Positions 1 to 17,175 of a stretch of 64,000 nucleotides of DNA are shown here, piece after piece; the stretch's first letter is position 1, and each line of letters opens with the position of its first letter. The DNA lies in contig NZ_JAATJM010000001.1 in assembly GCF_011927945.1 (NCBI RefSeq), positions 1,311,501-1,375,500 of the forward strand. Reading direction: 5' to 3'. The notes under the pieces were generated by a model. That model was not told the origin of the DNA and searched no databases. It saw nothing but the letters and a program-made list of their open reading frames with translations. The position numbers and the translations under genes are program-made. This DNA comes from Brevundimonas alba (lineage in GTDB: Bacteria > Pseudomonadota > Alphaproteobacteria > Caulobacterales > Caulobacteraceae).

Positions 1-2
1 TC

Positions 3-557
3 CAGCAACTCGTCGATGAGGCGGCCAAAGACCCGGATGGACTGACTGCCAAGCTCTGCGCCTGGTCTCAGGAGTTCATGGATCGAGCGGGGCTGGCCAA
101 AGCTTCGGGATCCGAGTTCCGAACTGCGAGCCTATTTGCCCTCGTCTATACCGCGGGACGTCTAGCCCAATCATATGGCGTGCTGCCCAAGGGTTGGAAC
201 TGCGGTTCGTCGGCCATGGCCTGCTACGTTCAACACAGGCTAGAAAAATCCCAAGCGCTGGGCGGGCCTCGGGAGATGATCCTGGCGTACAAGACTCTGC
301 CAGGGGTCCTGTCGGGCCATACGTTCACGGCTGATGAGTTCCGAGCGAGCCCCGGCGTTCTGGTTCGTCATCGGGATCACGACGAGCTCATCGTCCACCC
401 GAAGGCCTTGGCCGCCCGCGTACGTGATGCCGTCGCGCTGGTGAAGCAGTTGAAGGCGGTTGGAATCGCAGTGTGTGAGGCGGGAACGCTTCAAACAAAA
501 AGGAGCATCGGGGGTAAGCAGACTCGGGTCCATTGCTTCCGGTTTGAGCGCGGATAG
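3..557 (+). CDS. DUF927-like protein, C-terminal fragment (5' end outside window)
   Basis: The reading frame is open to the left edge, so only the last ~184 residues are visible and the true start lies outside the window. The visible part contains a stretch like the C-terminal section of DUF927 (primase/helicase-like) proteins of mobile elements: a basic entry, an alanine-rich ALVYTAGRLA helix, then a G-W-x-C-G-S turn. No Walker motif is visible because that part would be upstream. DUF927 proteins are common in integrative elements, which fits the integrase and other accessory genes that follow. The family assignment rests on short resemblance only. The remainder could equally belong to another element-borne replication protein. 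Confidence 0.5.
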   Translation, partial: QQLVDEAAKDPDGLTAKLCAWSQEFMDRAGLAKASGSEFRTASLFALVYTAGRLAQSYGVLPKGWNCGSSAMACYVQHRLEKSQALGGPREMILAYKTLPGVLSGHTFTADEFRASPGVLVRHRDHDELIVHPKALAARVRDAVALVKQLKAVGIAVCEAGTLQTKRSIGGKQTRVHCFRFERG

Positions 558-886
558 TTCCGCCTGGTGGTGCCCCGGGGGCCAAACTGACGAGTTAGCC
601 CAGTAGGGCATTTGTTACAGATCACCCCATCGGCCGCCCTGACGTCCCCGGTGGCGTCGCGGTACGATCGTCAGACGGAGACGTCCAGGATGGCTTCGGG
701 AGACAAGGCGGCGCTCTCCCTGACCCCCTTCAGCCCGATGGGGGAGCCGCGCCCCCAGAGGTTCCCGGGACGGGTTTGACGCGTCTGTGGCCTTGCCCGC
801 CGCCGCCGGCCGGCCTTGGTTGACTGGGGTCGCGTGGGCAGTTTTGCGCGCCGCAGGACAGTCCGCAGACAGCGCGGTGGCGCTAA
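558..886. other. Gene-free gap, nothing recognised
   Basis: These 329 bases separate a + strand gene end from a - strand gene end. I see no convincing open frame, no tRNA and no clear U-tailed hairpin. The sequence is GC-rich with C/G runs and could be a remnant of lost element DNA. Confidence 0.5.
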
Positions 887-1441
887 CTAGCCGCTGTCCC
901 CGGAGCCCGTCTTGAGAGGTCGAACGTGGACCAACATGGTCTCCCTTGGCCGGATCCGGTACTCCCCGCGCCGAACCGTGTAGCGGTCCAGGCGGAGCTC
1001 CTTCAGCGTTCCGGAGTCCCTCAGGATGATAGCTTGCGGCGTGATCGACGCGGCCACCGTCCAGTGGTCGTAAATGGGCGTCGATACGTTGAGGACCAGC
1101 GCGGACCGCCCTGACGCCATGATGTCCGCAATCGACTCCAAGAACTCCTCGTTGGTCCGGAATGTCGTCTCCCTGAAGGGACGGCTTACGACCACCGAGC
1201 CTCCGAGCGCCTTCCTGAAGGTAGGGAACGCGTCATCCGCCGCCCTAAGTAGATCCCGGCCGGTCAGGCCGTCCTTTATGGCCCTACGAAGCGTTCCCCC
1301 CGGCAGGGAGCCCGCCAGCTCCTCGAAGATCCTCCGGTGGACGGGTGACCGGCCTAGCCTACAGCCGGCGAGATCAAGGGCGTTGATGAGGGCGTAGAGA
1401 CCGCAAAGGCCGTCAAAGTCGCCTTGTCTTGCGGCCCTCAT
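887..1441 (-). CDS. Putative papain-like cysteine peptidase, 184 aa
   Basis: I do not recognise a named family, but the layout is that of a small papain-fold (C39/C58-like) hydrolase. An N-terminal GDFDGLCGLYALINAL places Cys13 at the head of a helix, YDHWTVA supplies His126, and ILRDS supplies Asp142, giving a plausible Cys-His-Asp triad in the right order. There is no signal peptide or membrane segment, so it should act in the cytoplasm. It lies 37 bp downstream of the DUF3768 gene on the same strand, so the two may be co-transcribed. Its place in an accessory region next to an integrase and a defence locus suggests an element-borne or defence-related protease. That role is inference. Confidence 0.55.
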   Translation of the reverse strand: MRAARQGDFDGLCGLYALINALDLAGCRLGRSPVHRRIFEELAGSLPGGTLRRAIKDGLTGRDLLRAADDAFPTFRKALGGSVVVSRPFRETTFRTNEEFLESIADIMASGRSALVLNVSTPIYDHWTVAASITPQAIILRDSGTLKELRLDRYTVRRGEYRIRPRETMLVHVRPLKTGSGDSG

Positions 1442-1478
1442 GATTGACGCCCCAAGGTGGGGTCCTGATGGCCCGGCA

Positions 1479-1811
1479 TCAGTATTCCTCCGCCAGCATG
1501 ACCGTGAGCACGCGGACGCATTTGTCGGCGTCCGATGGGTCTACGGCTTGGGTTTTGATCCTCTGGTCGTAGTAGTCGATCTTCCAAAATATCCGCTGCG
1601 CGGAGACCGTAACTGCCCCGAAGTCATGCTCGCCGTATGGGTCGTTGGCCTCGTTGAACTCGTTGGCCAGGCTGATCGCCTGAAGCACCGCGGCGACGCC
1701 TTCTGGGCCAGCCGCCATGACTCCCTGGGTGATGAAGATGCGGCCCCCGATATGGTGGCGGCGCAGCTGGTCGTTGAGCGCGCGAATGCGCTCGCGCTTT
1801 TCAGCGGACAT
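1479..1811 (-). CDS. DUF3768 family protein, 110 aa
   Basis: The protein matches the DUF3768 pattern throughout: an N-terminal RIRALND segment, a GGRIFITQGV strand, the central NDPYGEHDFG block, then FWKIDYYD and a C-terminal RVLTVMLAEEY. Members are short cytoplasmic proteins of unknown function, frequent on plasmids and integrative elements of Alphaproteobacteria. An AGGAGGTCTTCC-type ribosome site sits just before the ATG (the + strand reads ggaagacctcct at 1812-1823), which supports this start. It probably forms a two-gene unit with the downstream cysteine-peptidase-like gene. Family identity is good; function is unknown. Confidence 0.8.
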   Translation of the reverse strand: MSAEKRERIRALNDQLRRHHIGGRIFITQGVMAAGPEGVAAVLQAISLANEFNEANDPYGEHDFGAVTVSAQRIFWKIDYYDQRIKTQAVDPSDADKCVRVLTVMLAEEY

Positions 1812-1926
1812 GGAAGACCTCCTGTTTGGACATGAGTCATCGCGCTCTGGCGGGATGCCAGAACGCTGGGGTGGAACTGCTCGTGAGGTAGGCTAGTGGG
1901 ACGGCCCGGAGCCGCCGTGGGGCGCC

Positions 1927-2502
1927 TTAGAGGCTGTGGACCAGTCGACGCTGGGCGTCGCTGTCCCCGTCGATGTAGCGCTGCGTGACCTCGATCGACT
2001 TGTGGCCCGCGAGCAGTTGAACGTCACGCAAAGTGGCTCCGGATCGATGGGCTTTGCGGGCGGCGTTGGTGATGAAGGTTCGACGCCCTGAGTGCGAAGA
2101 ACACCCTGCTGCGCCCACCTCCGCAAACAGCGCCGTGAACCAGTTGACGATGCTGTTGGGGCGAAGGTGGCCGCCCTTGGCCGAAGTCACCACGGGACCG
2201 ATCCGAGCGGTCGGAGCGGCCAGCTGCGTGAGGGCCGTTCGAAGGTCGGGATGCATGGGGATGCGCCTGCCGCTGCCCATCTTCGCTATCGTGTCAGGGA
2301 GGGCGATAGATGAGCCAACGCGGCCGTTGGCATCCAGCACCATGGACCAGTTCAGACCGGCGATTTCACACGCTCGAAGACCGGCCCGTAGGGATAGGAG
2401 GATGATGACTTGGTCGCGTTTGCCGAGACGGCGGGCGTGAGTGACGGAAAGTGTCCGTCTGACAATTGTGTCGGTGAGTGTTCTGGCCTGACGACCAGCC
2501 AT
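1927..2502 (-). CDS. Tyrosine recombinase (phage-type integrase), catalytic core only, 191 aa
   Basis: This is a site-specific DNA recombinase of the tyrosine class, which cuts and rejoins att sites. The catalytic residues are all visible in order: Arg43 (GLRACEI), Lys74 (TIAKMGSG), His137 and Arg140 (HSGRR), His167 (LAGHKSI) and the nucleophile Tyr176 (QRYI). At 191 aa it lacks the usual N-terminal arm- and core-binding domains. A stop codon seven codons upstream and an AAAGGA ribosome site just before the ATG show that this short form is the intended start. Short integrases of this kind are seen in alphaproteobacterial elements. It may mobilise this accessory region, but no att repeat could be identified. 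Confidence 0.85.
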   Translation of the reverse strand: MAGRQARTLTDTIVRRTLSVTHARRLGKRDQVIILLSLRAGLRACEIAGLNWSMVLDANGRVGSSIALPDTIAKMGSGRRIPMHPDLRTALTQLAAPTARIGPVVTSAKGGHLRPNSIVNWFTALFAEVGAAGCSSHSGRRTFITNAARKAHRSGATLRDVQLLAGHKSIEVTQRYIDGDSDAQRRLVHSL

Positions 2503-2802
2503 GAGCCATCCTTTCGCGAGCTAGCCCCCTCGGAAGGACCGGGAGCTCTGGAGTGATTTTGAGGGACATGGGCGGGGCAGCCAAAATGATGCGCAGCGTC
2601 CACCATCTCATTTTTATCACATAACATGTTGATTTGCAAGCAGAAAGTTTGATGCGGCTTGGTTTGGGCCGTGGTTTTCGGCGCTAGCGTTGGGCCGTGA
2701 GCGCGTAGGGTACGCTTGGACCTCAGCTAACTCGACCGCCCCTACTCGCGCCTTTCTGTCGTTATTCGCTTGCCCAGCGCCGACAACCTGAAAGGTTGGG
2801 GA
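2503..2802. promoter_or_regulatory. Divergent intergenic region with AT-rich patch, probable promoter of the effector operon
   Basis: This 300-base gap separates the leftward integrase from the rightward six-gene operon. It contains an AT-rich patch around 2608-2660, unlike the surrounding GC-rich DNA, including the 8-bp palindrome AACATGTT at 2623-2630. Such a patch is where promoters and a repressor site would be expected for both directions. No regulator gene is adjacent and no exact -35/-10 pair was assigned. Confidence 0.35.
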
Positions 2803-3546
2803 ATGCGGCGGCGCTACGCGGGAAAGCATCCCGCCGCGCGACTCAGCTATGACTGCGTCCTCGACCCCTCATACCCACGGGCCCTGATGTCTTTCGACTA
2901 CGAGCACACGTTCCAGTTTCCTTTCGGGGAGCGCTATCAGCACCGTGTCATCCCGTACGCGAAGATCGAGCAGGAAGCGCCGATGGGGCCGGGACTCTAC
3001 AGCTGGCATTTTCGGCTTCCGAGAAATGAGCAGGATCTCGAAAGAGTCCCGGCCTTTCTCCAGGCCCTCTTTCACAGCGGTTCTATCGCCGCCGAGGTGA
3101 CAGGCAATTTGCGCCAGAAGTATCGAGGAGAACTCCCGCTCCAGACGAACGCTTTCGATCAAGGTTTGTCGGCGGCTCTCGCTCCCGCCTTCTTCGCGAT
3201 CGCCTACCCGCTCTACATCGGAATCAGCCGAGGGCTACGCGGACGGCTTGGCTGTCACAAGGAGCAGCTGGAGGCCGCGAAGACCCAGCACCTCTACGAG
3301 CCCGGTCCCGGCGATACGACCGACGACGAGGCGGAGTCTCGGAACTTCGGCCAGCGCCTGGGGGCCGTATTTCGCAAGGCTGAGTTCTTGGACACAAGCT
3401 CCCTGTTCATCAAATGCGTCGCGTATCAGCAAGCTGGATCAGGCACCGAACCTTACGAGGTCTGGTTAGAGCAAGTGATGGTAGACATCGCCGCCGCTGA
3501 ACGAACCTGCAACACTCTATTCCACCCCGTTTTTGGAAGGCGCTGA
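2803..3546 (+). CDS. GIY-YIG-like nuclease, first gene of the phosphorothioation effector operon, 247 aa
   Basis: The protein carries features of the GIY-YIG nuclease fold: GLYSW at residues 64-68, PLYIGISRGLRGRL at 136-149 with the conserved arginine at 148, a late glutamate (WLEQVMV, Glu223) and a terminal asparagine block (CNTLFHP, Asn237) ending in FGRR. These correspond to the two strand motifs, Arg, Glu and Asn of the family. The gap of about 70 residues between GLY and YIG is longer than usual, so the match is probable, not certain. I chose the ATG at 2803, preceded by GAAAGG and GGGGA, over an in-frame TTG at 2770. It ends 3 bp before the DGQHR gene, pointing to co-transcription. The likely role is cutting DNA that lacks the sulfur mark; this is inferred. 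Confidence 0.6.
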   Translation: MRRRYAGKHPAARLSYDCVLDPSYPRALMSFDYEHTFQFPFGERYQHRVIPYAKIEQEAPMGPGLYSWHFRLPRNEQDLERVPAFLQALFHSGSIAAEVTGNLRQKYRGELPLQTNAFDQGLSAALAPAFFAIAYPLYIGISRGLRGRLGCHKEQLEAAKTQHLYEPGPGDTTDDEAESRNFGQRLGAVFRKAEFLDTSSLFIKCVAYQQAGSGTEPYEVWLEQVMVDIAAAERTCNTLFHPVFGRR

Positions 3547-3549
3547 ACA

Positions 3550-5565
3550 ATGGCTCTCACTGGCACCCCGATCGCGAAACCGACGATCAAGGTTTTCGGC
3601 ATGTTCGGTGCCTTCCATGTCGGCGATGCAGCGACGGCGAAGGACAAGGTTCTCGTTCGGTACTTCAACACCGTTGCTTCCGGGAAGCAGACGGCCGCCT
3701 CGGGGGACAGCCTCGGCCTGCTTCGAGAGCTTAAGCCTATGCGGGAACGTGTGAACGTCTCTGACCTGCGCGACCTCTCAAGCTTGCTCCAACGCGAACT
3801 CGATGACGCCCGGGTGGCCGAGGACCTCGTCCCCTACCTTAAGGGCGTCAATTCTGCTGTCGGCTTCTTCCCCGGTATTCTTGTCGCCTTGGTGCCGAAG
3901 GGATTCCTCCGCTCGGAGGAAGGGGTGGCCTATCCGAAGCCAGGAGCGGAGGGTGACGCGAACGGTCAAGTCTCAACCGGGTACGACGAATACTGGACGG
4001 CGAGCCGCTTCAAATTCGACGGCAAAGCCGTGTCGCTGGGCCTTCTGGAGATCGATCCCATGGTCACGGATCTGATCGTCCTCGATGGCCAGCACAGGGC
4101 GAACGCCTTCCGCTTCGCGACAAAGACCTTCGATGCGGTTCAGTCGGGCGAGACCATCTACAGGGCTTTCTACGAAAACGTCTCGGCGCCCAAGGACTTC
4201 GATTCCGAGCTGCCCGTAACGGTCGTTTGGTTCGAAAGCCAAGACGACATCGAGGCGCGCCTGATTTCGCGGAAGCTGTTCGTCGATGTGAATATGAGCG
4301 CACGGGCGGTCAGCGAGTCCCGGCGCGTCCTGCTTGATGACCGGGATCGGCATTCGATCGTCACCGGCAGCGTCTATCGCGGATTGGCTCAGCGCGCGTT
4401 CGATGCAGACCGGCTGTCGCTATTGCACACCGGCTTCGACTGCGAAGAGCAGGAGTTCCATCCCCTGACGTTGATGCTGCCGTCGCGCATGCAGGCGGTC
4501 GTCGCTTATGCGGCCTTCGGCAGGGATTCCCATTCGGGCTGGGAACCGTCTCTGAAGGGATACGCGCCCTATCTGGCGAACTACGGGCGCCTGAAGTCTA
4601 TAGCGCCATCGCTTGACGAGGCGGTCGCCTTGAAGGCGGAGCGCGGTGACAGAAAGGCTTTCGAGGAGACGACCGCGGTCCTTGACGAGGAACTCGCGCC
4701 GAAATGGATCGCCGTCCTAGAAGGCTACAATCTTGTCAGCGCTCACATTGAAGCGTCAGTCGAACTGGACAGCTGGGTCCGCACCCAGGTGGTCGCAATC
4801 GGGCAGGTTTGGGACAAGGTCTTCCGCGGAGGGGAGGGCCTTTACGGCGGATTCGCTCGGGTTTCGGAGGATGGCTCCGGCAGCGCCCACACGTACAAAA
4901 AGGCGATCGACGAGATCTCGGAGAAGTTCATCTCCATCCGAGAAGCCAAGCTATCGGGCTGCGACCCGGATCAGGTCCGCCGGGCCTACGACACCTTCTC
5001 CTCAAAGGCGGGCCTGACCGGCCTGTTCATGGCCGCGCACCTTTATCTTGAGCGGCGAGAGGCCGGCTGGGCTGATGTTTCGGCCTTCGTCGCCGACCTC
5101 AACAAGATTTCGGCTGAGAACTGGGTGCGCCTGCTGTCGACCTACAAGCCGGCGGTGGTCAGGGAACTAGATCCGAAGCAGTGGCCCGTTATGCGGGCCA
5201 TCATTCTGCGCGCTCTTCAAGGAGCCGATCCGTCGTTGAACTTCTTCGATCCGACGCTAGCGCAGCTTTACAATCCGGATATTCGTCTCATCAAACGAGC
5301 GGTTGAGCAGTCCGTGTCAGGCTATATGGACGGTTTGTCGCCGGCGCAGCGGGAGACGAACAGGGTCAGTGAAGAGCAGATCAGATCCTGGGCAACCGAC
5401 GCCATGGCCCTGCTTAAAGATATCCTGGCGGGAGCCGGCCTGCAGCCCCTCAATGACGACCAAGTGTTGCGAAACTTCGCGGTGCAGTGGATCGAGAGCC
5501 TGCTGCCTAAGCAAGGCCTGGCTGCGGCCGAAGCGGAGGACGACGATGATCCGGATGAGGCCTGA
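3550..5565 (+). CDS. DGQHR-domain (DndB-like) protein, 671 aa
   Basis: The defining DGQHR pentapeptide is at residues 179-183 (IVLDGQHRANAF), followed by the LFVDVNMSAR segment typical of DndB and related DGQHR proteins. DndB is known as a transcriptional repressor and modulator in DNA phosphorothioation (dnd) clusters. The DGQHR fold resembles ParB/Srx-like NTP-binding domains. This protein is much longer than DndB (about 350-400 aa), with a helical C-terminal half of unknown role and an acidic tail (EDDDDPDEA). It sits as gene two of the operon, 3 bp after the GIY-YIG-like gene. A regulatory or DNA-sensing function within the sulfur-marking system is likely by context. The exact role of this long form is unknown. 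Confidence 0.8.
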   Translation: MALTGTPIAKPTIKVFGMFGAFHVGDAATAKDKVLVRYFNTVASGKQTAASGDSLGLLRELKPMRERVNVSDLRDLSSLLQRELDDARVAEDLVPYLKGVNSAVGFFPGILVALVPKGFLRSEEGVAYPKPGAEGDANGQVSTGYDEYWTASRFKFDGKAVSLGLLEIDPMVTDLIVLDGQHRANAFRFATKTFDAVQSGETIYRAFYENVSAPKDFDSELPVTVVWFESQDDIEARLISRKLFVDVNMSARAVSESRRVLLDDRDRHSIVTGSVYRGLAQRAFDADRLSLLHTGFDCEEQEFHPLTLMLPSRMQAVVAYAAFGRDSHSGWEPSLKGYAPYLANYGRLKSIAPSLDEAVALKAERGDRKAFEETTAVLDEELAPKWIAVLEGYNLVSAHIEASVELDSWVRTQVVAIGQVWDKVFRGGEGLYGGFARVSEDGSGSAHTYKKAIDEISEKFISIREAKLSGCDPDQVRRAYDTFSSKAGLTGLFMAAHLYLERREAGWADVSAFVADLNKISAENWVRLLSTYKPAVVRELDPKQWPVMRAIILRALQGADPSLNFFDPTLAQLYNPDIRLIKRAVEQSVSGYMDGLSPAQRETNRVSEEQIRSWATDAMALLKDILAGAGLQPLNDDQVLRNFAVQWIESLLPKQGLAAAEAEDDDDPDEA

Positions 5566-5669
5566 GCGCGGGTGAGCGCTTCATTTACAACTTTAAATTT
5601 TAGATGGCTTAGAAGGATAGATGTCGGACGAGCATCTTCGCGGCTCGGACGATGTGCGGGGGACAAATC

Positions 5670-5831
5670 ATGACGGATCAACCGACTACTGACGCAGACA
5701 TCCCGCGCGTCATCGAGCAGATCGTCGAGCTCCAGCGGGAGTATTTCTTCGAGAACAAGGGCAAGGACCACGAACGGCGTAAACGCCTGCGAGACATCAT
5801 CGACCGCGCGACCCCCAATGGGGCCGCTTGA
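5670..5831 (+). CDS. Small protein of the phosphorothioation effector operon, 53 aa
   Basis: A 53-codon frame runs from ATG 5670 to TGA 5829-5831 with a GGGGGA ribosome site 7-8 bases upstream. Its stop lies at the start of the DndD-like gene, as in translationally coupled genes. The product is charged and predicted helical (IVELQREYFFENKGKDHERRKRL). It has no cysteines, membrane segment or motif that I recognise. It is too short to be DndE (about 110 aa). A role as a small adaptor or DNA-binding partner of the neighbouring ATPase is possible but unsupported. Confidence that it is translated comes from spacing and position, not homology. Confidence 0.6.
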   Translation: MTDQPTTDADIPRVIEQIVELQREYFFENKGKDHERRKRLRDIIDRATPNGAA

Positions 5832-5833
5832 GG

Positions 5834-7852
5834 ATGTGGCTCTCACAAATCACGCTGAAGGATTTCCGATGCTTTCCCGGCGAGCACTCGATCGAGTTTT
5901 CTCAGGATCCCGAACGTAACGTCACCCTGATCCATGCCGAAAACGGCGTGGGCAAGACGACCCTCCTGAACGCTCTGCTCTGGTGCTTCTACGGTCAGAC
6001 GACCGAGCGCTTCGAAAAGCGCGATGACCTGGTCAACTACGACGCCAAGGCCGCCGGGGCGCAGCACGCCTTTGTCGAGGTTCTGTTCGAGCACAACGGC
6101 AGCCGCTATCGCGCCCGCCGCTTCACCAAGGGAGGCGGGGGCGAGCGAGAGTTCACTGTCATGCGCATTGACGGCGGAAGCCACACCACCCTGCCCAACG
6201 CCGACGCCTTCATTAATACGGTCATCCCCAAGAGCATGGCCGGCCATTTCCTGTTCGACGGCGAACATGCCGAGTTCTTTCTTGGAGAAGACAACCGCCG
6301 CGCCATCCGCCGCGCCGTCCAAGACATTCTCGGCTGCTCGCTGATCGAGACGGCCATCGCCGATCTCGAGGAGACGGCGACCTGGTATCGCAAGCAGATC
6401 CCCAACACCAAGGCGTCCTCCTCCATGGACGCGCTGAGCTCGCGCATCGACGCATTGACGGGTCAGATCGCGGCCGCCCACGAAGCCAAGGACGGGCTGA
6501 CCGGCGAGATCGAAACGATCGAGCAGCGGATCGCTGACATCGACGACAAGCTGCGCAACTCGTCCGCCGCCAAATCCCTGCAGACCCGACGCGATCGCGC
6601 CAAGGGCGAGCTCGTCCGCGCCCGTACCCGCGAAACCGAAGCTCAAACCGAGGTGCTCAAATGGCTCGGCGAGAACGGACGCTTCCTTGTCTCCACCAAG
6701 ATCACCCAGCTGGCGATGGATCACCTCGATCAGCAGGAGACCAAGGGCAGGCTGCCCTCGCCCTATAACGAGGAGTTTGTGCACGACATCCTCGACATGA
6801 AACGCTGCATCTGCGGCGCCGCCCTAGAGCCCGGCAGCGATGCCCATGTCGCGGTGTCCAGCCTGCTGCAGAAGGCCGCGAACGCCACGCTCCGCAGCCG
6901 GATCAGCAAGGTGAAGGCGCGACTGTCCCAACTGAAGTCGGAGCGCCAGAAGGCTCCCGGTCGGCTCGACGCGGCCAACAAACGCCTGAATGACGCCCGC
7001 CAAGACATCTCCCGTCACGAACAGGAGCTCGACGATGTCTCCGAGAGCCTGAAGGGGATCGATTTCGACGATATCGCCGAGCGGGAGATCAAGCGGAACG
7101 ATCTGCGCCGAGAAGCCAATGCGAAACGCGAGCACCTCGGCAGCCTCGGCGTGCGGATCCAAACGTCCGAAGCCGACAAAGTCAACGCCGAACGGGACCT
7201 CAAGAAACTCGCCGATGAGGACGCCGGCGCAAGGATATTCATGACGCGCTACGCCCTGTGCGAGCGGCTCAAGGGGCAGCTCGAGCTTGAGCTCAAGAAG
7301 GAAGAGGAAGAGGCGCGAGGCGTTCTTCGCGCCTCCATCACCCGGATCCTGGCGGACACCAGCCGCAAGGCCTTCAAGCTTAGCATGAGCAGCGACTATT
7401 CGATCAGCCTAGTCAACGAAGCCGGCACCCAGATGCCGAAATCAAGCGGAGAAAACCAGCTCCTCGGCCTGGCCTTCACCGCCGCCCTGGTCGAGTTCGC
7501 CAAGATCCGCGAGAACGCCTCTGACTACCGGCTGCTGAAGGGCACGGTCGCGCCGCTGGTGCTGGATTCGCCCTTCGGCCAACTCGACGAGGATTACCGG
7601 CGGACGACCGCGTCCTTCATTCCCAAGATGGCCGGACAGGTCGTTCTGATGGTGTCGAAATCGCAGGGCTCTGGCTCGGTCCTGGAAGCGCTGCGTGACC
7701 GTATCGGCGAAGAGGTGGTTCTCATTCGGCACAACCGCGCGGACCGCGACGGCCGCAAACCTGAGATCCGTCAGTTTCACGGCAAGGATGTAGAGACCGC
7801 GGTGTTCGGCGCTCCAAGCGACGGCAGCGCCTTTGTGCGGGTGACCTCCTGA
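5834..7852 (+). CDS. DndD-like SMC/Rad50-type ATPase, 672 aa
   Basis: This is an ABC-class ATPase of the Rad50/SMC/DndD type. It has an N-terminal LSQITLKDFRCF strand, a Walker A ENGVGKTT at residues 36-43, long coiled-coil arms, a hinge with RCICGAAL (Cys325, Cys327) in place of a normal CxxC zinc hook, an ABC signature SSGENQLLGLAF and a Walker B PLVLDSPFGQLDE near residue 580. DndD proteins hydrolyse ATP during phosphorothioation, but here the modification ATPase is SspC, so this one more likely powers DNA scanning or cleavage in the effector complex. I start at ATG 5834; an in-frame TTG at 5828 would add two residues. The gene overlaps or abuts the 53-aa gene upstream and overlaps the next gene by one base. 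Confidence 0.85.
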   Translation: MWLSQITLKDFRCFPGEHSIEFSQDPERNVTLIHAENGVGKTTLLNALLWCFYGQTTERFEKRDDLVNYDAKAAGAQHAFVEVLFEHNGSRYRARRFTKGGGGEREFTVMRIDGGSHTTLPNADAFINTVIPKSMAGHFLFDGEHAEFFLGEDNRRAIRRAVQDILGCSLIETAIADLEETATWYRKQIPNTKASSSMDALSSRIDALTGQIAAAHEAKDGLTGEIETIEQRIADIDDKLRNSSAAKSLQTRRDRAKGELVRARTRETEAQTEVLKWLGENGRFLVSTKITQLAMDHLDQQETKGRLPSPYNEEFVHDILDMKRCICGAALEPGSDAHVAVSSLLQKAANATLRSRISKVKARLSQLKSERQKAPGRLDAANKRLNDARQDISRHEQELDDVSESLKGIDFDDIAEREIKRNDLRREANAKREHLGSLGVRIQTSEADKVNAERDLKKLADEDAGARIFMTRYALCERLKGQLELELKKEEEEARGVLRASITRILADTSRKAFKLSMSSDYSISLVNEAGTQMPKSSGENQLLGLAFTAALVEFAKIRENASDYRLLKGTVAPLVLDSPFGQLDEDYRRTTASFIPKMAGQVVLMVSKSQGSGSVLEALRDRIGEEVVLIRHNRADRDGRKPEIRQFHGKDVETAVFGAPSDGSAFVRVTS

Positions 7853-8328
7853 TGGCTGATCGCGTCCCCAACATTCACCGCAGCAAGCTCTATGAGGATC
7901 TCGTTCAGCGGCTCGCCACCCAGCCCGTTCCAGGGTCGGACCGCAAACTGTTCCCGACCCTGCGCGAAGTGCTTTGCTTCGCCGCCTTGCTCGGCTTCTC
8001 GGAAGGTCGCCGCCTTCCCCTGGATCGCTCGCACGGCACGGAGGACATCTCTTATCAGCAGTTCGAGGCCGATCCGGCCGCCGAAGACCTGCTCTGGACC
8101 TTGGCGGTGGCGGAAAGCCAGGACGTGGAGATCTTGCGCGAAGGCGAGGAAGGCCGATGTGCGGACATCTTCGAAGAATACGCCAACGGCGGCCTGGCGC
8201 TGATTAAGGACTATTTCCTGCGCAATGGCGGCGAGTATCCGGACCGGGCCTTGCTGGCCCTTCTGAGGGAGCGCGGCTACCTGCAACCGGTCGCCGCGGA
8301 GCCCGACCTCGCCGCGGTGACCTTCTAG
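7852..8328 (+). CDS. DNA phosphorothioation-associated small protein (dnd_assoc_4-like), 158 aa
   Basis: This short cytoplasmic protein resembles the phosphorothioation-associated protein 4 family: an N-terminal helix, then PTLREVLCFAALLGFSEGRRLPL, then an acidic middle and a YFLRNGGEYP block near the C terminus. Family members have no known activity but co-occur with dnd or ssp genes. Its ATG overlaps the TGA of the DndD-like ATPase (TGATG), and the PLD-helicase gene starts two bases after its stop, so translation of the three is coupled. That arrangement suggests a subunit of the same complex. The family name is from memory of the pattern and should be tested by profile search. Confidence 0.6.
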   Translation: MADRVPNIHRSKLYEDLVQRLATQPVPGSDRKLFPTLREVLCFAALLGFSEGRRLPLDRSHGTEDISYQQFEADPAAEDLLWTLAVAESQDVEILREGEEGRCADIFEEYANGGLALIKDYFLRNGGEYPDRALLALLRERGYLQPVAAEPDLAAVTF

Positions 8329-8330
8329 GG

Positions 8331-10493
8331 ATGTTGCGAAGCCTCGTCCTCAAGGGCGTCTACAAGTCCGATCAGGACGACATCCTGAGAAGCTTTTACT
8401 TTCCGGCGCTCGCGGCAGCTAATCGCTACGATCGAGCCGTCGGCTATTTCTCCGCTTCGTCCCTCAGCGAGGCCGCCCAAGCTTTGACCGTCTTCATTAA
8501 GGGAGACGGCGTGATCCGGCTCGTCGTCGGAGCCTTCACCGCGCAGAGCGACATCGACGCCGTTCGTGAAGGGCTGCGACTGAAGGAGATATCAGAGCGC
8601 ATTGGTGCCGAGATGGTCGCCGCCGTCAGCGACATCGACGACGAACTCTTCCAGCATCGCTTCAAAGCCCTGGCCTGGTTAATCGCCCATGGCCGCCTCG
8701 AAATCCGCGTGGCGCTGCGCCCCAACGGCATCTACCACGACAAGGTGGGCATTATCAGCGACGCCGACGGCGACGCCGTCGTCTTCTCAGGCTCGGCCAA
8801 TGAAAGCGCCGCCGCGCTTTTGCCGACGCAGAACTATGAATCGATCAACGTCTTTCCCACCTGGCGTCCCGAACTCGCTGACTTCCATGAGCCTCACCGG
8901 GATAGTTTCACCCGGCTATGGGACAACAAGAGCCGGGGCACGGTCGTCATCGATCTGCCGACTGCGCTGAAGGACAATCTTCTGGAGGTCGCCGCATCGC
9001 TTGACGGACCGCCCGACAGCGAACGGGAGGCCCAGATCGCTGAGCGGCTGCGCGCGCTCGAAGCGAGCGATGAAGCCGAGCCCGAGGCTCGCCTTCCCCG
9101 AGCACCGGCGATGATCCACGGGATGCCGTTCAAGATGCGCGAGCATCAGCTCGAGGCGCTGAGGGCCTGGCAGGCGAACGGCTATCGGGGCGTCTTCGAT
9201 CTAGCGACCGGCGCGGGCAAGACCATCACGGCGGTCTACGCCACCGTGCAGATGGCCAAGGGGATTCCCGGGCTCGCCGTGGTCATCGCCGCCCCCTACC
9301 AGAGCCTGGCGGATCAATGGTGCGAGATCCTGGAGGCGTTCAACATACGACCGCTCCAGTGCTACATCTCCAAGGAGAACTGGCACGACGACCTGCAAAA
9401 GCGGGTCCTCGACATGCAAGGCGGCTCGGACGCCTTTCAGGCGCTCGTCGTCGTCAACCGCACCCTCAGAACGCCCGAGTTTCAGGCGGCGTTGGCGCGC
9501 ATCCCCGGTAACCGGCTTCTGTGGATCGGCGACGAGTGTCACCACCACGGCTCGGAGTCCCTCGCGTCAGCCCTGCCGGCGCACGCCCATTACCGTATCG
9601 GGCTGTCCGCGACCCCGCTGCACTATCTCGATGAAGAGCGGAACGCCCGGCTCAAGGCCTACTACGGCGATATCGTCTTCAGCTATACGCTCGCCCAAGC
9701 CATCGCCGACAAGGTGCTCACCCCCTACAACTACTACCCCACCGTGGTTCCGCTCACGGCCGATGAGGCCAGCGAGTTCATCAGCCTGTCCGACGACATC
9801 GCTCGGGCCTTCATGCGCGAAGACAAGGGTTCCGGACCGCCGAGCACCATGCTGACGGCGCTTCTGATGAAGCGGGCGAGGGTCGTCGGCTCGGCCGCCA
9901 ATAAGATGATCGCCCTGCAGAAGACCTTGGCCGGCCGCCCCCCGCAGCAACACGCCTTGTTTTATTGCGGCGACGGCCAAGTCGAGATGGACGGGGTCGA
10001 CGAGGACGATGGGGCGGAGGATGGTCAGCCGACGCGTCAGATCGAGGCGGTCAGCCGGCTGCTCGACGATGAGGGATGGAAGGTCTCGCGTTTCACCGCG
10101 CGCGAAAGTCGGCGCGAGCGAGAGTCCATCCTGCAGTCCTTCAAGACGGGAGCGATCGACGGCCTGGTGGCCATCAAATGCCTCGATGAAGGCATCGACG
10201 TCCCCGCCTGCAGTATCGCCTACATCCTCGCCAGCTCCAAAGACCCGCGCCAGTTCATCCAGCGGCGCGGCCGAATCCTGAGGCGATCGCCCGGCAAGAC
10301 GATCGCCAATATCCACGACTATATCGTCGTCCTGCCCGAGGACGCCGAGGACGTGAGCGGGGCCGCGCGCAAGCTTATCACCGGAGAACTCAAACGCGTC
10401 GCCGAGTTCTCGGGCTTGGCCGAGAACCGCAACGAAGCCTATGCCGCCTTGCGGCCGATCCTGACCGCCTACGATCTGGAACACGTTCTCTGA
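8331..10493 (+). CDS. PLD-nuclease/SF2-helicase fusion, phosphorothioation-linked restriction enzyme, 720 aa
   Basis: The N-terminal ~250 residues form a phospholipase-D-type nuclease domain with one HxK motif (YHDKVGIIS, His136 and Lys138) followed by FSGSANES. The rest is a superfamily 2 helicase: Walker A ATGAGKT at 292-298, a DECH box at 401, a GLSATP motif III and a QRRGR motif VI near 644. This PLD-plus-helicase layout is that of the proteins annotated as DNA phosphorothioation system restriction enzymes. PLD nucleases normally need two HxK motifs or a dimer, so dimerisation is expected. It is the last gene of the + strand operon and ends 15 bp from the convergent sspD gene. The likely job is translocating on and cutting DNA lacking phosphorothioate; inferred from family and context. 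Confidence 0.85.
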   Translation: MLRSLVLKGVYKSDQDDILRSFYFPALAAANRYDRAVGYFSASSLSEAAQALTVFIKGDGVIRLVVGAFTAQSDIDAVREGLRLKEISERIGAEMVAAVSDIDDELFQHRFKALAWLIAHGRLEIRVALRPNGIYHDKVGIISDADGDAVVFSGSANESAAALLPTQNYESINVFPTWRPELADFHEPHRDSFTRLWDNKSRGTVVIDLPTALKDNLLEVAASLDGPPDSEREAQIAERLRALEASDEAEPEARLPRAPAMIHGMPFKMREHQLEALRAWQANGYRGVFDLATGAGKTITAVYATVQMAKGIPGLAVVIAAPYQSLADQWCEILEAFNIRPLQCYISKENWHDDLQKRVLDMQGGSDAFQALVVVNRTLRTPEFQAALARIPGNRLLWIGDECHHHGSESLASALPAHAHYRIGLSATPLHYLDEERNARLKAYYGDIVFSYTLAQAIADKVLTPYNYYPTVVPLTADEASEFISLSDDIARAFMREDKGSGPPSTMLTALLMKRARVVGSAANKMIALQKTLAGRPPQQHALFYCGDGQVEMDGVDEDDGAEDGQPTRQIEAVSRLLDDEGWKVSRFTARESRRERESILQSFKTGAIDGLVAIKCLDEGIDVPACSIAYILASSKDPRQFIQRRGRILRRSPGKTIANIHDYIVVLPEDAEDVSGAARKLITGELKRVAEFSGLAENRNEAYAALRPILTAYDLEHVL

Positions 10494-10508
10494 AGAACGG
10501 TCCGGTCC

Positions 10509-11336
10509 TCACTTGTGACAGGTGAGGCACAGCTTGGCGGCGGATTTGTAGATGTCCTCGATCTCGATCGGCGTGTCTCTGAGCGCGTTGGTCAGGCGGC
10601 GCGCCTTGAGGCGCTCCACCCTGCGGTCATGGTCCGCCCGGATCTGCGCGACCCGCTCGGGCCTGGCGATGTCCTCCAAGGACTCGCCGTGGCTCCAAGT
10701 GAACGGCGACCCGTGCTCGAGCGCATTCTTTTCGTAGCGTTTGGCGTCCTCGAAACTGTCCGGATGCTCATCCATCAACCGGACCCATTCGATCTTCTGC
10801 TGGTAGAAGCAGAAGGTGCAGCCGCTGCGCGACCGCCACCGGTAGTACTCCGGAAGGCCGAGCCCGGCCGCCTCCAGGATCTCCATCACGCCCGCCTTGT
10901 CGATGCCGGCTTCACGGAAGGGAAGGTGGGTCCGAAGTGCGTCCTTTCCGGACACATAGCCTTCGCGATAGTCCTCGTCGGAGCGGATGGCGACATAGCT
11001 ATGGACCGTGACGCCGCTGGCCACCGACGGCTGAACCCAATCCTCGAACGGCTTGATCTTCAGCTGGCGCGTGCACCAGCGCGTCTGGGGCGACGGCAAG
11101 AAATTCTTGTATTCACGGAGCCAGTAATCGAAGTCCCGCTCCGGATTGAGACGCTCGATCGGCTTGTGAAGCACGCCCTCCAGCCGGCCGAGAAATTCGT
11201 AGACCTCCGGCAACTCCTTGCCGGTGTCGGTGAAGAAATACTCGATGTCCAACTCGGGCCGATGGTGGGACATATAGACCGCCAGCGCCGCGCTATCGCG
11301 GCCTCCGGACAGGCCCAGGACGTGCCGTTCAGCCAT
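10509..11336 (-). CDS. sspD: SspD-like ATP pyrophosphatase (PAPS reductase family), 275 aa
   Basis: The enzyme adenylates the DNA backbone phosphate so sulfur can replace oxygen. The PP-loop SGGRDS lies at residues 10-15, with WCTRQLKIKPFE (Cys88) typical of the PAPS-reductase superfamily. Two cysteine pairs, CTFC (173/176) and CLTC (270/273) at the very C terminus, could hold an Fe-S cluster. At 275 aa it is far shorter than DndC (about 500 aa), which favours the single-strand Ssp system. I start at the ATG at 11336 (MAERHVLGLSGG), not an upstream one, because the PP-loop then sits at the normal distance. The start overlaps the end of sspC by 8 bp, and it is the third gene of sspBCD. Confidence 0.88.
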   Translation of the reverse strand: MAERHVLGLSGGRDSAALAVYMSHHRPELDIEYFFTDTGKELPEVYEFLGRLEGVLHKPIERLNPERDFDYWLREYKNFLPSPQTRWCTRQLKIKPFEDWVQPSVASGVTVHSYVAIRSDEDYREGYVSGKDALRTHLPFREAGIDKAGVMEILEAAGLGLPEYYRWRSRSGCTFCFYQQKIEWVRLMDEHPDSFEDAKRYEKNALEHGSPFTWSHGESLEDIARPERVAQIRADHDRRVERLKARRLTNALRDTPIEIEDIYKSAAKLCLTCHK

Positions 11337-14300
11337 GGGCGGTCTCCGTTCGTTTCGCCGTCGCCGCATCGCGCGCGGCTTCGGGCGCGGTGCTCAGGAT
11401 CAGTCCCAAACTGGCGACCGCGGCTAGGGCGACGTCGGGGCTGACGCCTTCGGCGCGAAGCAGGTCATTGATGCGCAGCGCCAAGGCGTCGGCGGTCTCG
11501 CGTTCCGCCGCGGAGACCTGAATCTCATGGGATTGCGGCTCGGGGTAGTCAGGGTCGCTGATATAGACCGCCATGGCCACCCGGCCGCCTTCGCGTCCTT
11601 TCAGACGCTGGAAGATCTCGGCCTTAAGGAACTGGTCGGCCAAGGCCGCGAGTTCGACGGACGCGGCGTCGAGGTCTCGATCGACCCAATCTCGCGTGGG
11701 CTTGTTCGCCGCCAGAACGGCGAACCCTTCCATATCGGCGATGTCGCCTTCGAACGTCGAAAGTCGGGTGGCCAGGGCGTCGAGACGGAAATTGCCGGTC
11801 AATCCCTTCACGTCCAAGGCACGCCGACGCAGTTTCGCCAGGCTGTCGGGATCGCCCTTGACCCGCAGCTCCCGCAGCAAGATCGTCTCGAGGCCCGCGA
11901 GCATCCCGCTATAGGCGCCCTTCAGTTCGTCCAGGGCGGCGATGACATGCCGCGCCAAAACCGGCCCTGCGTAGTTGTCCGCCTCAAGGCCGAAGGCTTT
12001 GGGCACGTCTCGCGTCAAGAACTGGTTCGGGTCGTCCGTGACCTTCGCACGGTCTCGGAACGCGATCGTCGTCGGCGTTAGGCGCGTCGTCCGAAGGGTC
12101 CAGTTCGGTAGATTGACGACGGCGGTGATGAGGCCGCGCGCGACGTCGAACGCCGTGGGCGGCACAGTCGCTTCAGTCGTGGACAGCCGCTCCGCCAAGC
12201 CCGAGATCAGCGCGACATCCACATCCGTCAGAACGATCGAGCGGATCCGCACGCAGCTCGAATCCTGGACCATTCGGTCGATCAGGAAGCTTTCCAGCCC
12301 GGGACGATAGACGCCCTCGAGATAGACTGCGGTCATCCCCGACCGGGTCATCATATAGGCCGCGCCGAGAAGGGTGCAGAGCCCGTCCCTGACTCCGAAG
12401 GGGGCCGCGCGCCAATGGGCGAAGATCTCCGCCATCGTCAGGCCGTCCGGCGCCGCCGCCAGCAGCTCGTCGGTTCGGCGCCAGAGGGCGTGAAGATGGT
12501 GCGGATCGCCTGCTTCAGGGGCCACGAAACGCCAGGTCCCGGTCGCTTCGTCAAGGCGGTGAAGTCCGGTGCTTTCCAGAAGACTCACGTACAAGCCGGC
12601 TTGGGGGGGGAAGCCGACAATGCCGAGGCGCGGCGACGAGGCCTGCCCGACCATGGCCCTGAGCAGGGCTCTGACCGCGGCGGCGGCGTTGGAGGAGGGG
12701 CGGCTGCGGTTGACGAGCTCGTTGGGCAGCCACGGCGCGGCGGGATAGCGCCAATCCGCCAGACGCGACGCGACGACGCTGAGACCGGCCGGCCCGGACA
12801 GCCGAAGCGAGACGCCGCTGTCGAAACCCTCCGGGGCGACCCATTTGACGCCATGAACCGCGTCGGAGAGCCGATCTTCAAGGTCCGCGCTGAGGCGGGC
12901 CACGCGCGCGTCGAGCTCGCGCCGCGCGATCGCATCCCCTTCGAGCTCCGCGCTATGCGCGCGGACATGCTCGAGGGCCGATAGATCGGACGCCATCTCG
13001 CGGATCATGAAGCTGTCCGAGGTCCAGCCGAGCACCACGAGCTGCTCACCCGCCAAGGCGGAGGCTCGCTTTAGGATCGTCTGGGCCTGCGCGGCGCTTT
13101 CGCCCTCTCCGCTGATGGCCAGAAGAAACAGGCCCGCCGCCCCGGGAGCCGGCCGATAAGCGCGCACGCGGTGTTCGACGTCCGCTAGGGCCGCGATCTC
13201 AATCTCAAACCAACGCAGGGCGCCGGTGATCTCATAGTGCCGCTTGGCCAGCACCGGCTGGAGGGCCGCGTGCCGGGCCAGCTGCCGATAGTCGAGGGCG
13301 ACGCCCGCTTCGCGCGCCCGGTCCACGGCGGCGTCGATGTCGAAATCGCTCCCCGCATAGATCGCATAGCTTCCCGCGTGCTTGCGGAAGATGATCACGG
13401 ACCAATCCGCGAGCTCCTCGAGAATGCGCTCGACGGCCTTGGGCGCGAGGCCGCTGACGGCATGCTGAAGGACCTGCGGCGTGGCCTGCAGACCCGATCG
13501 ATCCTTGAACAGATCGATCAGGGCGACGGCCTTGAGAAGCGCGAGATGGTCGGCGCTGGCGGCGCGGCCCTCGGCGCGGACGATCGCCTCAAGGGCCGTC
13601 GACCAACGATGGCCGTCTGGCGAGGCCAAGATCGCCGGCTCCAGATTGGCGTGCAGATAGTCCCACAGGCGAGCGAGCGGGAAGAGGGGTGCGTCCTTGG
13701 CCGGAACCTCTTCAAGATAGGTCTGGAAGCCGTAGGGCTCGATCGAATTCAGGAAGCCGAACAAACTGCGCTGGTTCTGACCGAACCGCCGCCGAGACAC
13801 CGGTCCAATCAGCGCCGCTACCAGCGGATGCAGCGGCCAGCAGGCATGCAGCTTGGCTTCGAGCGTCTGAGCGTCGCCTAGGCGCTGACTGCGCAGCAGC
13901 TCGGCGACGACCGGGGCGGCGGGATTGGATCGCGCGGTGCTCGGGGGGGCCTCGATGGCTCGACCGATCAGGTCGAGTTGTTCCTCGGCGGCCAGGTTGA
14001 TCGGGATATCCAGATAGCGGCCCTGGATCTTGATCCATTCGTCACGGGCCTCGCGCGCGAGGCGGTGGGCGTATTCGTCGAAGGCCTGGTGCAGGATGCC
14101 GACGAGCAAAAGCCTTTGGTTCGACCGGGACGCTGTTTCCGCCAAGTCCTGGAACAGATGCACGTCGCCGTCGGCGCGCGCGGCGTGTTCGAGGAATTTG
14201 CCCATCTCATCGACGAGCAGAAGCAGTCCCGCGTGACGCGGGTCGGCGGAGACCCGCAACGTCCAGGCCGCCAGACTCTCTCGCTTGGCTCGCTCAAGGC

Positions 14301-14724
14301 CGGGAAGGTCCGCCACGGAGGCGGCGAGCGCCTCGCCGATGGCCCGCTCCGGATCGTCGCGGCGACCGACCGCGGCCACCACGAGCCAGGGCGTCTTGTC
14401 GCCACGGAACGCGCCGAGCAGCTCCCGCCGATCAGCGTCTCCGACCTCGGCGAGGAGGCCCTCGGCGGCCTTGCGCGAACCGCCCGCGAGCGCCGCTAGG
14501 GCGATGGCCAGACTCGATTTTCCACACCCATAGGGCCCCGTCCAAGTGAAGGCACCGTGCCCCGTGGCGCCGTGATGCCGGGCCATCAGAAGGAGGGCTT
14601 CGATCGCGGACTGCGAGCAGACATAGCCGTCGAGCGCGCGAGGATCGGTCAGATCGGCGTCGACGCGCACGGCGCGCGTGAACCGGCGCGCGACGCTGAC
14701 GATGTCGGAGAGGCGAGGGGTCAT
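11329..14724 (-). CDS. sspC: SspC-like large P-loop ATPase, 1131 aa
   Basis: This is the ATPase of the SspABCD sulfur-modification machine. Walker A is GPYGCGKSS at residues 63-71 and Walker B is LLLLVDEMGK at about 167-176, followed by a QRLLLVGILHQ strand that could carry the sensor. The remaining ~800 residues are mostly helical without other motifs I recognise, as usual for the family. It overlaps sspB by 4 bp at its start and sspD by 8 bp at its end, so the three are translationally coupled. The order B-C-D and the adjacent cysteine desulfurase support SspC over a generic AAA protein. It has no relation to DndD of double-strand systems. Confidence 0.85.
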   Translation of the reverse strand: MTPRLSDIVSVARRFTRAVRVDADLTDPRALDGYVCSQSAIEALLLMARHHGATGHGAFTWTGPYGCGKSSLAIALAALAGGSRKAAEGLLAEVGDADRRELLGAFRGDKTPWLVVAAVGRRDDPERAIGEALAASVADLPGLERAKRESLAAWTLRVSADPRHAGLLLLVDEMGKFLEHAARADGDVHLFQDLAETASRSNQRLLLVGILHQAFDEYAHRLAREARDEWIKIQGRYLDIPINLAAEEQLDLIGRAIEAPPSTARSNPAAPVVAELLRSQRLGDAQTLEAKLHACWPLHPLVAALIGPVSRRRFGQNQRSLFGFLNSIEPYGFQTYLEEVPAKDAPLFPLARLWDYLHANLEPAILASPDGHRWSTALEAIVRAEGRAASADHLALLKAVALIDLFKDRSGLQATPQVLQHAVSGLAPKAVERILEELADWSVIIFRKHAGSYAIYAGSDFDIDAAVDRAREAGVALDYRQLARHAALQPVLAKRHYEITGALRWFEIEIAALADVEHRVRAYRPAPGAAGLFLLAISGEGESAAQAQTILKRASALAGEQLVVLGWTSDSFMIREMASDLSALEHVRAHSAELEGDAIARRELDARVARLSADLEDRLSDAVHGVKWVAPEGFDSGVSLRLSGPAGLSVVASRLADWRYPAAPWLPNELVNRSRPSSNAAAAVRALLRAMVGQASSPRLGIVGFPPQAGLYVSLLESTGLHRLDEATGTWRFVAPEAGDPHHLHALWRRTDELLAAAPDGLTMAEIFAHWRAAPFGVRDGLCTLLGAAYMMTRSGMTAVYLEGVYRPGLESFLIDRMVQDSSCVRIRSIVLTDVDVALISGLAERLSTTEATVPPTAFDVARGLITAVVNLPNWTLRTTRLTPTTIAFRDRAKVTDDPNQFLTRDVPKAFGLEADNYAGPVLARHVIAALDELKGAYSGMLAGLETILLRELRVKGDPDSLAKLRRRALDVKGLTGNFRLDALATRLSTFEGDIADMEGFAVLAANKPTRDWVDRDLDAASVELAALADQFLKAEIFQRLKGREGGRVAMAVYISDPDYPEPQSHEIQVSAAERETADALALRINDLLRAEGVSPDVALAAVASLGLILSTAPEAARDAATAKRTETAHG

Positions 14725-15719
14725 GCCGCGAGCCGTCCCATGTCGCGCGCGTACATGGCGCGCAGAACGGCGTCGGCCTGAAGCTGCTCAAGGCCCGGCG
14801 CATAGAGTTGACGCATGCCGGAGGATTCATCCCAGCGAAGCGCGCCCCCGGTCAAATCATCGAGCCTCACCAGCCGTTCGGCGACCGCGTCTTCGTCGAG
14901 GAGAAAGACCTGTCCCGGCGAGCCTCGCTCGAAGGTGAGGAAGTCGACCGAGAAGGACCGGCGAGTGTCAAACAGCGTCCGCCAGAAATCGATCAGGGCA
15001 TAGAGGAAGACCTCATCCGGCAGGGACGGCTTGGGCCCGCGTCGAAAGCGATACTGCTCGCCCACGCCGGCCTTCTGGATCAAACCCAGCTCGGCCAGGG
15101 GCGACTCGATGCTGTCCTCGGGGGCCCGGCGCCCCCCCGCGGCCGCGGCGTGATAGGTCCGGATGATGCACTCCACATCCCGCTTCAGGGTCACGCCGGC
15201 GATCGGCCGGTCGCGACTGAGCCGACCCGATTCCTGAAGCTCCTCGCAGCGACGAACCAGGCGCCGGGTCATCAATTCTCGATCAAAGGCCGGCTCGTGG
15301 AACTCGTTGAACGCCCAGTGCCAGGCTGACGCCCGACCGGGCCGGCTGGCCAGCGTCCAGTGCAGCAGCCAAAGCGATCCGGGGTGCTCCAGAAACGGAT
15401 CGTTCGATTCACCGAACAGGAGGTCGCCGATGGGCCCCAAGGTCACCCGGCTTGTCCGTTCGCCCGGCGCGTCATGAGAAGAAAGAATATCGGTCGCCAA
15501 AGCCCAGTGTCTCATAGAAAGGACCATGTTCTTGCCTACGCCGAATCTCGCGATTGCTGCGTCGTCCAAGAAGACGGAAGCGCCTGTTGCCGAATCGACG
15601 CGCAGTTGTTCACTAACCGCGTCATAGGCTTTCTTCAGCCATCCGTAGCGGAGCGGAAACGTTTCGTGTCCGGCGAACTGTAGTTTGTAATCGTCGTTGG
15701 CGAGGAGGCTGCGGGTCAT
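14721..15719 (-). CDS. sspB: SspB-like DUF4007 protein (phosphorothioation nickase), 332 aa
   Basis: The N terminus carries the DUF4007 signature: FAGHETFPLRYGWLKKAYD from about residue 14, followed by FGVGKNMVLSMRHWA near residue 60. SspB is the DUF4007 member of SspABCD, reported as the DNA nickase that opens the strand for sulfur insertion. The length is normal for the family. It is the first gene of the leftward sspBCD operon, divergent from sspA, with about 100 bp between the two start codons. The DUF4007 signature is the best single argument that this locus is Ssp (single-strand phosphorothioation) and not Dnd. Catalytic residues cannot be assigned from sequence alone. Confidence 0.88.
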   Translation of the reverse strand: MTRSLLANDDYKLQFAGHETFPLRYGWLKKAYDAVSEQLRVDSATGASVFLDDAAIARFGVGKNMVLSMRHWALATDILSSHDAPGERTSRVTLGPIGDLLFGESNDPFLEHPGSLWLLHWTLASRPGRASAWHWAFNEFHEPAFDRELMTRRLVRRCEELQESGRLSRDRPIAGVTLKRDVECIIRTYHAAAAGGRRAPEDSIESPLAELGLIQKAGVGEQYRFRRGPKPSLPDEVFLYALIDFWRTLFDTRRSFSVDFLTFERGSPGQVFLLDEDAVAERLVRLDDLTGGALRWDESSGMRQLYAPGLEQLQADAVLRAMYARDMGRLAA

Positions 15720-15820
15720 TGGTCCTGGAATGTCCTTCCAGTTGATGACACCCGGTCTTATGGCCTATGTCAACGGTCCTGGTGATCGTCACCAGCCCGA
15801 CTTTGGAGGGATTCGCACAG
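15720..15820. promoter_or_regulatory. Divergent sspB/sspA promoter region
   Basis: This 101-bp gap separates the start of sspB (leftward) from the preferred start of sspA (rightward). It holds a short inverted repeat TGGAA-TGTCC-TTCCA (15726-15740) and two copies of GGTCCTGG, either of which could be an operator. A strong GGAGGG ribosome site for sspA is at 15805-15810. No exact promoter hexamers were assigned. Confidence 0.45.
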
Positions 15821-16990: not shown

Positions 16991-17175
16991 CCCGCAGAGG
17001 GCGTTTATCGACGAACGTCGAGCCTCGCCTATTCCCATTGAGAGATTGCGGGAGGCAGCCGAACCCCCGGCTAGCGCTGGCCTTCGCGCGCATTTCTGGG
17101 AGTTATGAAAGGCTGTATGAAGCGTCAGATTTGACGAATACTTCTTCAGCATAAACAGCAGCTTGGAAGAAGAAA

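Follow-up and report, generated by a model that had tools for sequence, protein, structure and literature searches.

The stretch of DNA analysed here (in the following called the window) comprises 64,000 nucleotides of the Brevundimonas alba genome. Near its start a long ORF encoding a DGQHR protein lies directly behind a putative nuclease gene and is followed by a Pbe cassette and by the genes of an Ssp system for phosphorothioate (PT) modification. The features of this region are:

2890–3546, + strand: predicted GIY-YIG nuclease subunit, 218 aa (ORF open from TTG 2770; ATG 2890 chosen by homology to the Erythrobacter locus L009)
2992–3000 (G35/Y37), 3214–3222 (Y109–G111), 3244 (R119), 3256 (H123) and 3499 (E204), + strand: catalytic-type residues of the nuclease, from the alignment
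3550–5565, + strand: long DGQHR protein, 671 aa, ATG start (87 family members of at least 600 aa)
3550–4539, + strand: N-terminal alpha/beta DGQHR (ParB/Srx-like) domain, approximately residues 1–330 (invariant motifs, hhalign to DndB, AF2)
3790–3795 (QR pair), 4084–4098 (DGQHR) and 4279–4293 (FxxxN), + strand: motifs in the N-terminal domain
4582–5514, + strand: C-terminal all-helical domain, approximately residues 345–655 (about 310 residues), with no known domain and no DndB counterpart (AF2)
5521–5562, + strand: disordered acidic C-terminal tail (translation, AF2, family charge)
5652–5831, + strand: probable PbeB-like small protein, unannotated, 59 aa, or 53 aa from ATG 5670 (small ORF directly before PbeC)
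5834–7852, + strand: PbeC, CxC-type ABC ATPase (PADLOC PDLC02750, 892.6 bits; CIC motif; ORF open from 5828)
7852–8328, + strand: PbeD (DndE cognate), TIGR04062 dnd_assoc_4 (81.1 bits, cut-off 74.25)
8331–10493, + strand: PbeA, PLD/HKD nuclease and SF2 helicase (PADLOC PDLC02704, 804.7 bits; PLDc_2, ResIII)
10509–11369, − strand: SspD (PADLOC, 438.8 bits)
11329–14724, − strand: SspC (PADLOC, 1181.4 bits)
14721–15719, − strand: SspB (DUF4007; PADLOC, 332.9 bits; PF13182, 279.5 bits)
15767–16990, + strand: SspA/DndA cysteine desulfurase (PADLOC SspA, 402.9 bits)

SspA, SspB, SspC and SspD were all identified by PADLOC, so that the locus is classified as SspABCD, in agreement with the initial annotation. 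The ATPase that had been described there as DndD-like is PbeC, and the downstream effector genes form a Pbe cassette with homologues of PbeA, PbeC and PbeD and a small PbeB candidate. According to PMC10853773, TIGR04062/PbeD is the cognate of DndE. The ORF at 5652–5831 has counterparts at the same position in other Pbe loci, where small ORFs showing an ER/QR..(L/Y/F) pattern precede PbeC.

The region is bordered by a tRNA-Arg(acg) at 17176–17252, with a GC content of about 0.60–0.68 to its left and 0.68–0.72 to its right, and contains a tyrosine recombinase gene at 1927–2502. Positions 1–17100 of the window look like a tRNA-targeted defence island. A second copy of the tRNA-Arg end was not found in the genome, and therefore no att site could be assigned. 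Near the integrase a 184-aa ORF (887–1441, − strand) contains a stretch, DGLCGLYALINAL, which resembles a cysteine-peptidase-like motif. A promoter scan yielded nothing, and no convincing operator repeats were found between 2500 and 2900.

Domain architecture of the long DGQHR protein

The ORF at 3550–5565 is a real gene whose DGQHR/DndB core lies in the N-terminal half of the product. In an even sample of 398 genomes of the phylum a long DGQHR protein was present in the window genome alone (1/398). We therefore took relatives from a scan of GTDB contigs with a six-sequence alignment, in addition to a plasmid tblastn search. Together these yielded 87 long DGQHR proteins, none of them shorter than 600 aa; the family ranges from about 650 to 800 aa. 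A relative from Erythrobacter is 54% identical to the window protein. Phage and PHROG searches found nothing. Three relatives on viral contigs were fetched, one of them (L089) an actinobacterial-type Dnd locus and the other two with little context.

Similarity to DndB is restricted to the core. The Pfam DndB model (PF14072) matches residues 158–276 only (30.7 bits, cut-off 29.1), the DGQHR model TIGR03187 stays under its cut-off (37.6 bits versus 58.85), and the DndB equivalog TIGR03233 reaches 24.8 bits with a cut-off of 328, so a full-length match to DndB is not obtained. Likewise, an hhalign comparison of the long DGQHR profile with canonical DndB (probability 94.9, E 4.5e-8) aligns the core alone. 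Within it, Q81 R82, D179–R183, F244 and N248 are invariant in 55 sequences. The protein is indeed longer than DndB, as had been pointed out initially; the factor is 1.6–1.8 rather than almost two, since canonical DndB proteins in related loci measure 363–428 aa.

Structure prediction (AF2; mean pLDDT 88.7, pTM 0.87 for the whole 671-aa protein), proposed earlier for parsing the domains, indeed separated an alpha/beta N-terminal half, an all-helical part at residues 345–655 and a disordered tail. The acidic tail noted before is present (EAEDDDDPDEA, pLDDT 40–50), and a negative C-terminal end is the norm in the family (median net charge −5 over the last 20 residues). For the helical domain no Pfam domain consistent across the 55 members was found, and the C-terminal half showed no sign of a DNA-binding domain. 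None of the 55 members has a Pfam HNH/DUF1524 match; GmrSD_N (DUF262-type) matches occur in five (best E 0.0062), the motif variant being DGQHR and not DGQQR. Searching the PDB with the protein (phmmer/hmmsearch) gave nothing meaningful. Foldseek runs with the AF2 models of this protein and of the nuclease against the PDB were uninformative, with no match at E<0.001 and only high-rmsd alignments.

The upstream gene for a predicted nuclease and its co-inheritance with the DGQHR gene

The gene at 2890–3546, which the initial annotation had overlooked, is the constant and key partner of the long DGQHR gene. In the window its stop codon is separated from the DGQHR start codon by 3 nt. Its product is predicted to be a divergent GIY-YIG nuclease. 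In an alignment of 47 diverged sequences (A3) G35, Y37, Y109, G111, R119, H123, E204, P213 and G216 are invariant, and the catalytic set of GIY, YIG, Arg, His/Tyr and Glu is kept in all 47. Pfam PF01541 scores the window protein at 14.5 bits, below the gathering cut-off of 22.6, and matches 26 of the 47 members weakly (E<0.1, best E 1.2e-4). When the nuclease profile was compared with the PDB, the GIY-YIG domains of UvrC and T4 endonuclease II ranked first. In the AF2 model the secondary-structure elements come in the order expected of GIY-YIG, strands 1 and 2 being separated by an insert (GLY strand, insert, YIG strand, R/H helix, helices, strand, E helix). Against a viral library Foldseek gave no match at E<0.001 for this model and only high-rmsd alignments.

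A homologue of this nuclease gene is located directly upstream on the same strand of 59 of the 87 long DGQHR genes, with a spacing of −122 to +7 nt in all pairs but one. The pair occurs in 11 named phyla, loci with no recorded phylum not being counted, among them Pseudomonadota, Actinomycetota, Cyanobacteriota, Poribacteria and Bacteroidota. Long ORFs of 987 aa (L027) and 581 aa (L013) had raised the suspicion of a fusion between the two proteins; the former most likely reflects an overlapping upstream start.

Twelve actinobacterial-type loci that do not contain the usual nuclease gene carry an unrelated, compact GIY-YIG gene upstream in the same operon (GTYVLY...RYVGRSDTDIRRRLLRH...E; Pfam GIY-YIG 20.4 bits). 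In L021 this gene (7508–7900) is preceded by a small conserved protein and followed by an MzaB-like HATPase gene and then by the long DGQHR gene; L023, L025, L026, L029, L030, L036, L041, L047, L048, L067 and L089 are arranged in the same way. Neither type of GIY-YIG gene was found in the fetched DNA of about 16 of the 87 family members, some of these loci being located at contig ends. The replacement of one GIY-YIG by another suggests that nuclease action belongs to the function of the DGQHR protein, and we consider this the best argument from genomic context.

We further compared pairwise distances across 23 Ssp loci. The correlation between DGQHR protein and nuclease was 0.74, with none of 300 permutations as high. 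It amounted to 0.10 between DGQHR protein and SspD (43/300 permutations as high), 0.22 between DGQHR protein and SspC (17/300) and 0.66 between SspD and SspC. Because the distances of the DGQHR protein co-vary with those of the nuclease and hardly with those of SspD or SspC, the pair moves as a cassette of its own, and the modification genes form another module. On the DGQHR tree the window protein falls into a strongly supported clade of six with members from Erythrobacter, Comamonadaceae, Peregrinibacteria, Saprospiraceae and Deltaproteobacteria. The nuclease gene is common to all six. Ssp genes lie within the locus in five of them, whereas in the sixth, from Erythrobacter (L009), SspB is found outside the fetched stretch at a distance of about 25 kb. 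Ssp and Dnd labels require only two changes on the tree.

These data also bear on the question of whether the long protein is a DndB-type regulator, enlarged and ATP-responsive, that represses the transcription of ssp/pbe, in which case the GIY-YIG gene would be a bystander. The DGQHR core common to both proteins and the 36 Ssp-type loci with no canonical DndB above 150 bits are in line with a regulator. We nevertheless regard this reading as quite improbable, as a separate full-length DndB already accompanies the long protein in 29 of 31 Dnd-type loci (363–428 aa, at least 466 bits with a two-seed model; Pfam check on two), co-variation is seen with the nuclease and not with the modification genes that the long protein would regulate, and the similarity to DndB ends at the core, with no DNA-binding domain seen beyond it. 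This supports the initial proposal of something other than a simple DndB, with an effector function suggested by the additional residues; close homologues of the same length that act as simple DndB repressors did not appear. The window genome itself contains one DndB-family gene.

Association with phosphorothioate modification and with other effectors

Ssp or Dnd modification genes are present in 67 of the 89 tabulated loci, the partners of the long DGQHR gene being SspABCD or DndCDE. When loci with no modification genes were checked genome-wide, SspB or DndC was found elsewhere in 11 of 16. As background, SspB is present in 11 of the 398 genomes of the phylum. From these co-occurrence counts, and from the 11 genomes with SspB compared with the single one with a long DGQHR gene, it follows that there is a strong tie between the pair and PT, but that most Ssp systems do without the pair.

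The initial annotation had suggested that the extra residues may link the DGQHR module to the ATPase or the nuclease. Tied in this way to PbeC or to the HKD helicase-nuclease, the long protein would be an accessory component of Pbe (CxC ATPase). In the window the gene is indeed located on the same strand directly upstream of PbeBCDA. Among the 59 pair loci, as far as covered by the fetched flanks, Pbe genes were found in 16, a helicase/HATPase/PLD cassette in 12 and neither in 32. With 43 of 59 loci devoid of Pbe genes, the Pbe ATPase is not the usual partner and the proposed link is not general. Furthermore, the published PbeABCD system functions with four genes and no such protein (PMC6459918). 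We thus consider a Pbe subunit very unlikely.

A plain order of sspBCD, nuclease and DGQHR gene was observed in seven Ssp loci (L075, L083, L012, L020, L039, L059 and L011). Among the selected neighbouring genes that were scanned in L075 and L012 there is no known PT effector. L020 and L059 have a HATPase-type gene further downstream, and the contigs of some of these loci stop shortly after the pair. The plain loci are informative with regard to a back-up suicide effector, in which the DGQHR protein would deplete nucleotides or the GIY-YIG nuclease would attack host DNA once the main PT system is blocked. Such roles have been proposed in PMC10853773 for stand-alone URI/GIY-YIG nucleases at the edges of Dnd loci and for DndB. 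Since no non-modification component other than the pair is visible next to the ssp genes in plain loci, a back-up role is hard to claim there. Moreover, the close linkage and common inheritance of the two genes imply that they act jointly and not as two unrelated back-ups. This explanation is in our opinion unlikely. In several loci further effectors could be the real restriction part.

Some loci contain additional genes. A cassette of SF2 helicase, MzaB-like HATPase and PLD protein is located beside SspBCD and the pair in L006 (11355–15912) as well as in L005, L010, L014, L049 and L084, and may be a further effector module linked to PT. Some Ssp loci (L022:7599–9026, L035:862–2178, L050:15259–16521, L080:12235–13662) contain a second DGQHR protein, which is shorter (420–475 aa), reaches only 35–51 bits to DndB and could be an Ssp-type regulator. 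In Pseudomonas graminis (L075) the ssp-pair operon is flanked by a Thoeris ThsA macro-domain gene (12736–13572) and a NucS-like candidate defence gene (2685–3767).

Proposed function and comparison with known systems

We consider it moderately probable that the 671-aa protein and the GIY-YIG nuclease are the two subunits of a PT-linked restriction effector encoded by two genes. Binding and hydrolysis of NTP as well as recognition of the sulfur mark are probably tasks of the N-terminal DGQHR (ParB/Srx-like) domain, and the helical C-terminal domain probably serves as the docking site for the nuclease encoded at 2890–3546, which would result in a physical complex. Where the DNA carries the SspABCD mark, the NTPase would keep the nuclease in check or release the complex; invading DNA that lacks the mark would be nicked or cut by the nuclease. 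Gated in this way, the pair would work like SspE/DndI, with the nuclease as a separate subunit from a different superfamily. PbeBCDA beside the pair in this genome would be a second, independent PT-linked effector.

A wider reading, to which we give an even chance, is that the pair represents an exchangeable, previously unnamed module of DGQHR NTPase and GIY-YIG nuclease that uses Ssp or Dnd PT marks, has recruited a GIY-YIG at least twice and is one of several missing restriction partners for those sspBCD loci, the large majority, that have neither SspE nor SspFGH. Of 2,678 sspBCD occurrences 2,211 lack sspE/sspFGH (PMC8092258), leaving most with no identified restriction partner. For such loci the pair is a concrete candidate with a predicted nuclease active site, and the cassette is common to single-strand (Ssp) and double-strand (Dnd) PT systems. 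This suggests that ParB-like NTPases may be a general PT-reading gate taking different nucleases. Automatic "DndB" labels in PT loci would hide a second, functionally different family.

In the main texts of open-licence papers we found no description of such a pair (GIY-YIG with DndB or phosphorothioation), and priority is not certain. Rakesh et al. (2024, PMC10853773) noted URI/GIY-YIG nucleases near PT genes, on the margins of Dnd loci; the main text of that paper mentions neither a pairing with a long DGQHR partner nor Ssp loci in this context. In Rhodococcus qingshengii RL1 a GIY-YIG gene is listed near the dnd cluster with no comment (PMC8416521).

Among known PT-linked effectors, PbeABCD is separate from the pair: PbeBCDA is located immediately downstream in the window and is absent from most pair loci. 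SspFGH, like the pair as proposed here, is a restriction partner of SspABCD; it differs in having no PADLOC family in common with the pair, a Walker A motif in SspF and an FtsK-like end in SspH (PMC8092258). DndB has the same core of QR, DGQHR and FxxxN, yet is a repressor of 363–428 aa, whereas the long protein carries about 310 extra helical residues and co-occurs with DndB. The motifs QR, DGQxR and FxxxN are common to DGQHR/DndB and GmrS/DUF262 domains (PMC4619093). The pair also resembles SspE and DndI, which act in the systems SspABCD-SspE and IscS-DndBCDE-DndI and share with the long protein a ParB/Srx-like N-terminal domain (predicted in the latter), a DGQxR motif, the link to PT genes and the coupling to a nuclease. 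In these proteins a DGQQR ParB-like domain is combined with an HNH nuclease, with PT binding acting as a stimulus for the NTPase and as a switch of the protein (PMC9646914; PMC11662687). In contrast to this single chain of DUF262 and a DUF1524 HNH nickase, the pair combines a DGQHR domain (PF14072), followed by a helical C-terminal domain, with a GIY-YIG nuclease that has a gene of its own.
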